Positions 33,433 to 36,197 of a stretch of DNA of 38,929 nt are shown in pieces. Location: positions 1 through 38,929 of the forward strand of contig MIAR01000047.1 in the NCBI GenBank assembly GCA_001829185.1, given 5' to 3'. Source of the DNA: Spirochaetes bacterium GWB1_60_80. Its GTDB lineage: Bacteria; Spirochaetota; Spirochaetia; Treponematales; UBA12059. The notes beneath the pieces were generated by a model. That model made no database searches and was not told the origin of the DNA. It saw only the letters and a program-made list of their open reading frames with translations. The translations under genes and the position numbers were made by a program. Position 1 is the stretch's first letter. Every line of letters starts with the position of its first letter.

Positions 33433-34020
33433 TTATAGAGCGGTGCGGCCGCGGAAGGAACGGGCCAGGGTCAGCTTGTCGGCGTACTCTAGGTCGCCGC
33501 CCACCGGCATGCCGGTGGCCAGCCGACTGACGCCAACGCCGGTATCCTCAAGCACCTTCTTGATATAGAGAGCGGTGGTGTCGCCTTCCACCGTCGGATT
33601 AGTGGCTAGCACCACCTCGCGCACCCCCAGCTCCAGCACCCGGGCATGCAGCCGGTCCAGACGCAAGGCCTCCGGGCCAATCCCATCCAGGGGCGAAATC
33701 AGACCGCCGAGGACATGGTACAAGCCCTGGTATTCCCGCGAGGCCTCGATGGTCAGCACGTCCTGCGGCTGTTCCACTACGCACAGTTGCTGCCGATCCC
33801 GCGACGGCGAAGAGCAGACTATACAGACCGACCCTTCGGCATAGCTGCCGCAGCGCTCGCAGAAGCGGACGGCATCCTTGATTCCCGCGATGGAACTGGC
33901 CAGCAAGCCGGCGAAATGACCATCGCCCTTGAGCAGGAAGAACGCCATCCGCGACGCGCTCTTTTTACCGACGCCAGGCAGTCGCGCCAGCAAATTTACC
34001 AGATCATCGAGCGCTTTCAT
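33433..34020 (-). CDS. recR: Recombination mediator RecR
   Basis: A 195-residue DNA-repair protein that, with RecO/RecF, loads RecA at gaps. Helix-hairpin-helix at the N-terminus (LARLPGVGKKSASRMAF), a Cys4 zinc finger (FCERCGSYAEGSVCIVC), a Toprim domain (LCVVEQPQDVLTIE through VVLATNPTVEGDTTA) and the conserved end (SRLATGMPVGGDLEYADKLTLARSFRGR). The start ATG at 34020 overlaps the ybaB stop codon, so it is translationally coupled as the last gene of dnaX-ybaB-recR, an order shared by many bacteria. Confidence 0.97.
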   Translation of the reverse strand: MKALDDLVNLLARLPGVGKKSASRMAFFLLKGDGHFAGLLASSIAGIKDAVRFCERCGSYAEGSVCIVCSSPSRDRQQLCVVEQPQDVLTIEASREYQGLYHVLGGLISPLDGIGPEALRLDRLHARVLELGVREVVLATNPTVEGDTTALYIKKVLEDTGVGVSRLATGMPVGGDLEYADKLTLARSFRGRTAL

Positions 34021-34355
34021 GTTCCAAGGCCGCTACCATCACCAAAGGGATTCATGCCGCCCAAGCCGGCGCTCTTGGCCACTTCGCCCTGCAACGCCTG
34101 CTTGATCTTCGAGGAAGCGTCATTGTAGGCCGCTCGAACCAAGTCTTGCAGGATGACAACATCCTGGGGGTCCACCACCTCCGGCGCAATCTCGACGGCC
34201 AGCATCTCCATCGCCCCGTTGATGGTCACGCATACCATGCCACCGCCAGCGCTGCCCTTGGCGGTAACCGAGGCCACCTTCTGCTGCATCTCGGCAGCCT
34301 GGCGGGCGAAAGCCTGCGGGTCCTTGAGCATCTTCATTATGCTGTTCAAATCCAT
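34017..34355 (-). CDS. ybaB: YbaB/EbfC nucleoid-associated protein
   Basis: A 112-residue DNA-binding protein that forms a tweezer-like dimer. Typical sequence: MDLNSIMKMLKDPQAFARQAAEMQQKV, then VTAKGSAGGGMVCVTINGAMEMLAVEI and a C-terminal helix (LVRAAYNDASSKIKQALQGEVAK). It has a strong AAGGAG ribosome site and lies 30 bases after dnaX. In Borrelia, EbfC is a global nucleoid protein; a similar role here is inferred. Confidence 0.95.
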   Translation of the reverse strand: MDLNSIMKMLKDPQAFARQAAEMQQKVASVTAKGSAGGGMVCVTINGAMEMLAVEIAPEVVDPQDVVILQDLVRAAYNDASSKIKQALQGEVAKSAGLGGMNPFGDGSGLGT

Positions 34356-34385: not shown

Positions 34386-36197
34386 TCAACCCTCGCCGAT
34401 TCTCTTGCCGCGGAATACCCGCTCCACAATGGCGGCGGAATCCGGCAAGACCCCAGTATCCTGTACCGATTCCACGGCGTCAAAATTGTCATCGTCATCG
34501 TCGCCGTCGTCATCCGCCGCCTGTACTTGGATAACGGGAGTGGCGCTTTCGGGCACTTGTAAATCAATGCGTAAGGCCCGCCCCGAAAGCTCGGTGGCCT
34601 TCCTGGCCAACAGGTTGTTTTCAGCCAAAATGGTATTGCCGTCGTAGGCGTTGGCGCAGTTTATGCGCAGGCGATCATCCAGGACGCGCCAGCTTGTCGA
34701 ACGTTCCAGGCTGGACGATAACACCAGACGCTTCTTGGCCAACAACGCCACTAGCTTTTCTTTCAGCCAGCCAGCGTCCTCGCCGTCGCCATCAACACCT
34801 GCCCCGGCCGGCGCAGCGCCAGCCGCCAGCGTCGCCTCGTCTGGAGCCAGTAGCTCATCATCAGGATCAGACGCAGCCACAGCCTTTCTAGCGGCCAATG
34901 GGGCTACATCCAGATTCCCGTCCACCGGCATGCTGTCGCCAGCACCGGCGGGAATGCTATCGGGTGCATTCCGGGCCGGGCCACTCAGCCCTGGGTCATT
35001 TTTTTTTTGAGCCAGCGCCAGCAAGGCGGCGTCGGCCACCCCGGCACCGGCGCCATTCACCACCAGCGCCTTAAGTTCCCGCACCGTGCGGGCTAGCAGC
35101 GCCGGCGGCACGTAGTCGCCAATGGAACAAAGCCTGGCCACGGCCAATTCCAGCTCAAAGCGCGGATTGACGCTATAGCGCATGTTACGGTAGAGCTCAA
35201 ACAAGCCGGCCAACATACGCTCAACGCGCGGCGCATCGATAGCGGCCGTCACAGCGGCGGGGAAGGCCGTCCGCGGCGCGCCTAGCAAGGCCTCGCGCTC
35301 GACACCGCAGCTGATCAGCAATAGACCGCGCACGTAGGCCACCGCGTCGGTCACGAACTGCTCGACGGATACGCCGCTGGCGATGATGGCGTTCAGTAAC
35401 TCCAAGGCCCCAGCCCGGTCGCCGGCCACGCACAGCTCCATCAGACCGCCCAGGCGCTCTGACCCCACCAAGCCAAGCTTGTCGCGGATCTTGGCCGCAG
35501 TGATATGACCACCGGAAAAACTGGCCACTTGATCGAACAAGGTATAGGCATCGCGCAGCGAACCAGTCGCCTCGCGGGCAATCCAGAGCAAAGCATCGGA
35601 CTCGGCCTGGACGCCGAGGTCGGCAGCGGCCGACTTGAGCCGCTCCAGGATGGTCTCCAGCTGAATCAAGCGGAAGTTGAACTGCTGGCAGCGGCTTTTA
35701 ATGGTGGCCGGCACCTTGTGCAGCTCAGTCGTGGCGAAAATGAACACGATATAAGGCGGCGGTTCCTCGATAGTCTTCAGCAGCGCATTAAAAGCGCTGT
35801 TGGACAGCATGTGTACCTCATCGATAATGTAAATCTTGTACTTCGAGGCATTGGGCGGAAACAGCACTTCATCCTTGATCTGTCGGACGTTCTCCACCGA
35901 GGTGTTGGAAGCGCCGTCGATCTCGATGACATCGAGCGCCGCCCCCCGTCCGATCGATTGGCAGGAATCACACACGCCGCAAGGTTCGGCTGTCGGCCCC
36001 CGCTCGCAATTGAGCGACTTGGCCAGGATGCGGGCCGTGCTAGTCTTGCCGCAGCCGCGCGGCCCGGCAAACAGATAGGCGTGGGCGATTCGTCCCGACG
36101 CAATCGACGCCCGCAACGTCGCGGACACGAATTCCTGACCGGCTAATTCATCAAAATTGTGCGGCCGTTTCCTGGTGGCGGTAATCTCGTATGCCAT
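34386..36197 (-). CDS. dnaX: DNA polymerase III subunit tau (and probable gamma)
   Basis: A 603-residue clamp-loader subunit. Walker A GPRGCGKTST (45-54), the zinc-binding Cys cluster CERGPTAEPCGVCDSC (64-79), Walker B YIIDEVHM (123-130), sensor 1 FATTE (154-158), SRC finger (168-170), sensor 2 GSLRDA (212-217). The clamp-loader domain III ends around residue 370. A run of ten A in the coding strand (34999-35008) covers codons 397-400 (Q-K-K-N). A one-base gain gives QKKK and stop; a one-base loss gives QKKMTQG and stop. So truncated gamma-like forms of about 400 residues are predicted. The C-terminal tau region ends with an Asp-rich stretch. The start at 36197 is leaderless (6 bases after TATGCT); longer frames upstream are not supported. 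Confidence 0.96.
   Translation of the reverse strand: MAYEITATRKRPHNFDELAGQEFVSATLRASIASGRIAHAYLFAGPRGCGKTSTARILAKSLNCERGPTAEPCGVCDSCQSIGRGAALDVIEIDGASNTSVENVRQIKDEVLFPPNASKYKIYIIDEVHMLSNSAFNALLKTIEEPPPYIVFIFATTELHKVPATIKSRCQQFNFRLIQLETILERLKSAAADLGVQAESDALLWIAREATGSLRDAYTLFDQVASFSGGHITAAKIRDKLGLVGSERLGGLMELCVAGDRAGALELLNAIIASGVSVEQFVTDAVAYVRGLLLISCGVEREALLGAPRTAFPAAVTAAIDAPRVERMLAGLFELYRNMRYSVNPRFELELAVARLCSIGDYVPPALLARTVRELKALVVNGAGAGVADAALLALAQKKNDPGLSGPARNAPDSIPAGAGDSMPVDGNLDVAPLAARKAVAASDPDDELLAPDEATLAAGAAPAGAGVDGDGEDAGWLKEKLVALLAKKRLVLSSSLERSTSWRVLDDRLRINCANAYDGNTILAENNLLARKATELSGRALRIDLQVPESATPVIQVQAADDDGDDDDDNFDAVESVQDTGVLPDSAAIVERVFRGKRIGEG
34999..35008 (-). promoter_or_regulatory. 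A10 slippery run in dnaX
   Basis: Ten consecutive A on the coding strand, read as CAA AAA AAA AAT. It could cause transcriptional slippage or -1 ribosomal frameshifting. Both shifted frames meet a stop within one to five codons, as in Thermus dnaX. Confidence 0.7.

Follow-up and report, generated by a model that had tools for sequence, protein, structure and literature searches.

The dnaX gene of Escherichia coli is read with a programmed -1 ribosomal frameshift, for which the heptamer A_AAA_AAG, a Shine-Dalgarno sequence and a stem-loop are used. In Thermus thermophilus dnaX, according to the accounts of Larsen et al. 2000 given in PMC1088944 and PMC5009743, slippage is transcriptional and takes place on a run of nine A's. 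A cluster of two-ORF dnaX genes found with GeneTack comprises nine genes with ten A's, in which gamma is the unshifted product and slippage gives tau (PMC3711429). Among spirochaetes, the dnaX of Borrelia burgdorferi has been described as lacking a cis element and as making tau only (PMC9879097, 2022), and a 2012 review holds that most bacteria beyond enterobacteria and Thermus show no frameshift signature in dnaX and perhaps do not produce gamma (PMC3290774). Slippage in Thermus dnaX and the two-ORF poly-A dnaX genes of a 2013 scan are already known; no report of slippage or frameshifting in a spirochaete dnaX was found in the open papers searched, a coverage that is incomplete and leaves priority unproved.

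The window, that is the whole stretch of 38,929 nucleotides that was analysed, carries on its minus strand a dnaX gene identified by NCBIfam PRK06647 (6.9e-188) and TIGR02397, in the product of which Pfam recognizes the ATPase core, the lid and domain III, the last ending at about residue 371 (table 1). On its 3′ side, within 33433-34355 of the window, lie two minus-strand ORFs (34017-34355 and 33433-34020), which we take from resemblance to be YbaB/EbfC-like and RecR-like, respectively; dnaX-ebfC-recR is a common gene order. The coding strand of dnaX contains a run of exactly ten A's (T10 on the plus strand), which starts with the middle base of codon 397 and is read xAA AAA AAA AAn (phase 1); the minus strand over 34985-35011 is GCTC AAAAAAAAAA TGACCCAGGGCTGA. 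The unshifted frame is that of tau, the ORF passing through the run to a conserved C-terminal tail, and the two shifted frames are closed 0 and 4 sense codons past the run. An earlier note on this DNA had read the codons as CAA AAA AAA AAT and the shifted-frame ends as QKKK-stop and QKKMTQG-stop, and had predicted a short form of about 43 kDa. The computed products bear this out, since one additional A, equivalent in frame to a -1 shift, gives a protein of 42.9 kDa ending in AQKKK*, and the loss of one A gives a protein of 43.2 kDa ending in AQKKMTQG*. The distance from domain III, put at some 30 residues in that note, is about 26 when taken from the Pfam end of the domain. Two slippery heptamers, A_AAA_AAA and A_AAA_AAT, are in frame at the run with TGA next, and an Rfam search of the gene gave no match.

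Table 1. Features of the dnaX locus in the window and of its predicted products.
Feature	Position	Strand	Basis or remark
dnaX CDS, full-length tau, 603 aa, 63.9 kDa	34386..36197	-	start codon ATG, 36197; range includes the stop
AAA+ ATPase core of DnaX, retained in putative gamma	35670..36137	-	Pfam PF13177 4.7e-46, PF00004
Clamp-loader domain III, kept in putative gamma	35085..35504	-	Pfam PF12169 9.2e-11
A10 run, candidate slippage site, codons 397-400	34999..35008	-	CAA AAA AAA AAT, phase 1
TGA for +1 A or -1 ribosomal shift	34996..34998	-	predicted gamma, 400 aa, 42.9 kDa
TGA for -1 A or +2 A	34985..34987	-	predicted product, 403 aa, 43.2 kDa
C-terminal globular domain, tau only, lost in putative gamma	34551..34787	-	AlphaFold2 core pLDDT 84-88
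Conserved C-terminal tail IVERVFRGKR, tau only	34389..34430	-	alignments

The arrangement resembles that of Thermus, as far as the accounts cited describe it, in having a run of at least nine A's in the coding strand of dnaX past domain III, with tau in the unshifted frame, near stops in both of the others and gamma as the short product. It differs in that the Thermus run is an A9 seven-eighths along the gene, whereas in the window an A10 is found at two-thirds (codon 397 of 603), and in that slippage was measured there and is predicted here. With E. coli it shares the placement of the site after domain III, slippery heptamers and a -1 stop 0-1 codons past the slip; however, E. coli uses A6G and a 3′ stem-loop, while the window gene has ten A's, no conserved stem-loop and both shifted frames closed. 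The two-ORF genes (PMC3711429) also have ten A's at the tau/gamma boundary, but there the unshifted product is gamma and the unshifted frame stops just past the run, which is not so in the window. With Borrelia burgdorferi the window shares a spirochaete dnaX-ebfC locus.

Conservation was assessed in the window's own family (f1; 20 genomes with a dnaX) and in a second family of the same order (f4). All f1 members of genera g1 (2), g2 (3), g4 (3) and g7 (1) have A10 in phase 1, as do seven f4 genera (g13, g15, g25, g33, g35, g38 and g49), and wherever an f1/f4 dnaX has a run in the linker, in 17 of 17 genomes, it is exactly A10 in phase 1 and lies between codons 393 and 428. Constancy of length among homologues is likewise expected of a Thermus-type site; other families have A9 to A12. 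The genomes are mostly fragmented drafts, and conservation covers independent assemblies and some single-contig genomes. The linker around the run cannot be aligned between genera; length and phase having been kept while their surroundings diverged, gamma is very probably made from dnaX. The run is nonetheless dispensable in f1/f4, being absent from the linker in g3, g6, g9 and one g5 gene, and from a supported f4 subclade of 14 dnaX genes. The earlier note's expectation that relatives keep the run, on which it had staked its reading, is borne out in four f1 and seven f4 genera, although the run is not universal in the group, g3, g6, g9 and much of f4 being without it. A search of the run-less f1/f4 genes for another slippery heptamer with a prompt -1 stop returned just two weak CCCGGG cases, so that these lineages show no replacement site.

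The 17 run-bearing f1/f4 genes have a GC content of 58-73%, and their lysine codons are mostly AAG (e.g. AAG:AAA 24 to 0, 22 to 0 and 20 to 1), so that the presence of A at the three wobble positions of the run in all 17 is extreme (summed log10 P -48, uncorrected for kinship). The stops of the window are part of the conserved arrangement: the stop reached by one additional A, or by a -1 shift, comes 0-1 sense codons past the run in 17 of 17 genes, and that reached by the loss of one A, or by two additional ones, is no more than 7 codons away in 14 of the 17. The pattern strongly suggests that the A10 is a recoding site under strong selection, and the reading of it as a gamma-generating site is supported at the level of sequence.

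Across the phylum, 158 distinct dnaX genes from about 40 families were sampled. Runs of at least nine A's number 38 in the 15,313 codons of the linker region (codons 370-470) and 4 in the 76,036 codons elsewhere, a 47-fold difference in density (P 2e-25, with no correction for kinship); among genes with at least 50% GC the counts are 21 and 1. Raw P values of this kind are too small because the sample includes near-relatives, and the clade-level tests given below are the fair ones. The recurrence of the run outside f1/f4 includes family f3, to which Treponema bryantii belongs in the tree, where A10 is directly followed by TGA in two separate clades, among them the single-contig genomes G024, G027 and G055; runs of A9 to A12 are found in f6, f8, f12, f16, f24, f28, f35, f41 and others, and outside f1/f4 those of A9, A11 and A12 are in several phases. 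The dnaX genes sampled from f7, which are probably those of Borreliaceae, have 29-31% GC and no run of A8 or longer, unlike their GC-rich relatives and in agreement with PMC9879097. Placed on the tree, the presence of a run changes 18 times, at least 12 of them on well-supported branches; the run has therefore been gained and lost often.

The survey also turned up genes of unusual make. In f5, genome G135 has two different dnaX copies (L294 and L295), one with an A9 linker run in phase 2 and the other without, and many DnaX proteins (L170, L173, L174, L236, L303-L309) have about 460-510 residues and a shortened tau region, several retaining a C-terminal tail like V(F/R)xG. L041 (G010:C190:6051-6060) has A10 in phase 1 at codon 543 of 593, C-terminal rather than in the linker, where slippage would swap just the final 50 residues, the conserved VFRG tail among them; C-terminal A10 runs of this type are also present in L101 and L108, from Desulfobacterales and Deltaproteobacteria records.

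How rare such runs are was judged by pattern searches of whole genomes. In that of the window (3.60 Mb) there are five runs of at least ten A's, both strands counted, and those lying in sense in identified genes are two, in dnaX and in ftsK. Other long ORFs contain about a dozen A9 runs in the sense direction, where a run of that length is at least tolerated, and the weight of the argument is therefore placed on conservation and not on the single occurrence. In the 17 run-bearing genomes taken together (about 62 Mb), 17 of the 43 runs of at least ten A's are the dnaX run, which in G002, G028 and G071 is the sole A10 of the assembly; the others are mostly situated outside plausible genes or opposite to an ORF, and many resemble terminator T-tracts on the opposite strand.

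Three explanations do without recoding. That the run is a functionless homopolymer, with stops in the shifted frames by accident, might be thought from the A9 runs just mentioned and from controls in which stops so near are not rare in the window gene taken alone; however, the same exact length and phase in 17 genomes that mostly prefer AAG, the 47-fold enrichment in the linker and the position of the run as the only A10 of three genomes leave this very improbable. Chance, which the earlier note had already thought a poor explanation, is refuted by conservation, as 16 other genomes from two families also have A10 in phase 1, and could be revived only if all the runs were assembly errors. The resemblance of many other A10/T10 runs in these genomes to T-tracts would fit a T10 acting on the opposite strand as an intrinsic terminator of antisense transcription, but no terminator-like hairpin is found at the window run, and hairpins abutting the runs are no stronger than elsewhere in genes (mean percentile 0.51), which makes this the least credible of the readings considered. 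Finally, homopolymers of ten are mutable, and the tract might serve as a contingency (phase-variation) locus at the DNA level, replication slippage toggling tau on and off; against this, the length is fixed at A10 in 17 of 17 genomes and, as dnaX is an essential replication gene, the loss of tau should be lethal, so that the idea can be given hardly any credence.

The reading preferred here, to which we assign a probability of roughly three in four, is that the A10 is a selected recoding site at which slippage of RNA polymerase gives both tau and gamma. The polymerase would slip on the run in part of the transcripts, producing A11, A9, A12 and so on; mRNAs with 10 or 10+3n A's would be translated into full-length tau, and those with other numbers would meet a stop few codons past the run and yield gamma, which would consist of ATPase domains I-III and lack the linker, the globular domain at the C terminus and the conserved tail. 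Both the occurrence of slippage and the function of gamma as a working clamp-loader subunit we infer from sequence. If one heptamer were all that mattered, either the wobble base of codon 1 or all of codon 4 could vary, but A is kept at the former (clade-level P 8e-5) and the latter is kept as well (clade-level P 2.5e-8), which argues that the length of the run is itself selected. Furthermore, with one value per clade, the stops are nearer than in linker controls in the -1 frame (P 6e-6) and in the +1 frame (P 1.5e-4); a +1-frame stop matters just when frames shift both ways, and its nearness thus points to slippage in transcription. Baranov et al. state that, where nine consecutive A's or T's are conserved in length in all homologues, purposeful slippage is very likely, and that long runs in GC-rich genomes are likelier to be under positive selection (PMC1088944).

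The live alternative is a programmed -1 ribosomal frameshift of the E. coli dnaX type, with a slip on A_AAA_AAA or A_AAA_AAN, TGA 0-1 codons later and a gamma of about 43 kDa, which we regard as a minority possibility, distinctly less likely than transcriptional slippage and yet well above the three explanations set aside above. It would account for the -1 stop in 17 of 17 genes and for the A_AAA_AAG that is formed where G comes after the run, and Shine-Dalgarno-like pairing is mildly enriched upstream (mean percentile 0.33), strongly so at about 6 of the 17 loci, the window gene not among them, which leaves this alternative some room. It does not explain why all ten A's are conserved, when a single heptamer would need fewer, nor why the +1 frame, whose stops have no bearing on a -1 shift, is closed so soon as well, nor the A9, A11 and A12 runs of other families in several phases. 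Moreover, a conserved stem-loop downstream was looked for at the 17 loci and not found (mean z -0.3, mean percentile 0.47). A hairpin upstream, in the nascent RNA, has a mean percentile of 0.31 and is strong in some loci only. Taking together the retention of the full run, the stops in both frames, the lack of a conserved stem-loop and the considerations of Baranov et al., slippage would be mainly transcriptional, by about three to one over ribosomal. The mechanism, which the earlier note had left between RNA polymerase and ribosome, thus leans to transcription, and a mixture of the two is conceivable, since the two would yield almost identical proteins.

The portion that would be absent from gamma can be described in part from models. 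The AlphaFold2 model of the tau-only globular domain finds its best fold match in DnaA domain I (Z 9.6), with weaker matches to chain 5fku_E of the E. coli replicase (Foldseek) and, weakly, to the tau C-terminal domain 2aya; as DnaA-domain-I/KH-like folds score above the tau C-terminal domain, the identity of the domain is suggestive only. Tails like that of the window protein are widespread among spirochaete DnaX. By analogy with E. coli tau, the part found in tau only may bind or hold the polymerase.

Two spirochaete genes, L243 (f8) and L284 (f24), look like the two-ORF genes: their unshifted frame ends about 1 codon past an A9/A10 run, and a tau C terminus with a VFRG/IFKG tail is present in another frame overlapping the run. 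In these, tau would need slippage and the roles look reversed, an appearance that a homopolymer error in assembly could mimic.

Beyond the spirochaetes, a sample of dnaX genes has 7 runs in the 7,000 codons of the linker and 2 in the 32,691 codons elsewhere. Linker A9/A10 runs with stops within 11 codons in both frames were seen in L074, L089, L090, L131, L136, L138 and L143, a set drawn from Bacteroidetes, Ignavibacteria, Gemmata, Desulfobacteraceae, Verrucomicrobia, Fibrobacter and Pyrinomonadaceae. To judge from this sample, slippage in dnaX may be more frequent among bacteria than PMC3290774 states.

The ftsK gene of the window genome has, in the linker that precedes the FtsK alpha domain, an A10 in phase 1 (L198 1501-1510, the same as L332; G000 C10:3488-3497), and relatives have A11 (G001, L333) and A10 (G011, f1g6, L348), both in phase 1; at all of these runs each shifted frame is closed by a stop no more than about 6 codons away. 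The site is absent from some 40 other ftsK genes checked. It is a possible second slippage site, which would release FtsK without its motor. That A-run slippage is a shared, switchable device of the chromosome-handling machinery of spirochaetes, acting phylum-wide in dnaX (with gain, loss, relocation and reversal of tau and gamma) and in ftsK in the window's genus, with products responding jointly to conditions that alter slippage, is a speculative and rather doubtful extension; if it were true, the products of replication and segregation would respond together to conditions altering polymerase slippage.

For the bacterium itself, the conservation described makes it very probable that the A10 serves to derive gamma, a shorter clamp-loader protein, from the gene that also encodes tau. 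Two GC-rich spirochaete families have the site, as do part of the family that contains Treponema and scattered other families across the phylum, and close relatives are without it. Run-bearing and run-less relatives are natural pairs for asking what gamma does, a question long debated in E. coli, and the run-bearing dnaX genes offer a system for separating slippage of the polymerase from that of the ribosome.
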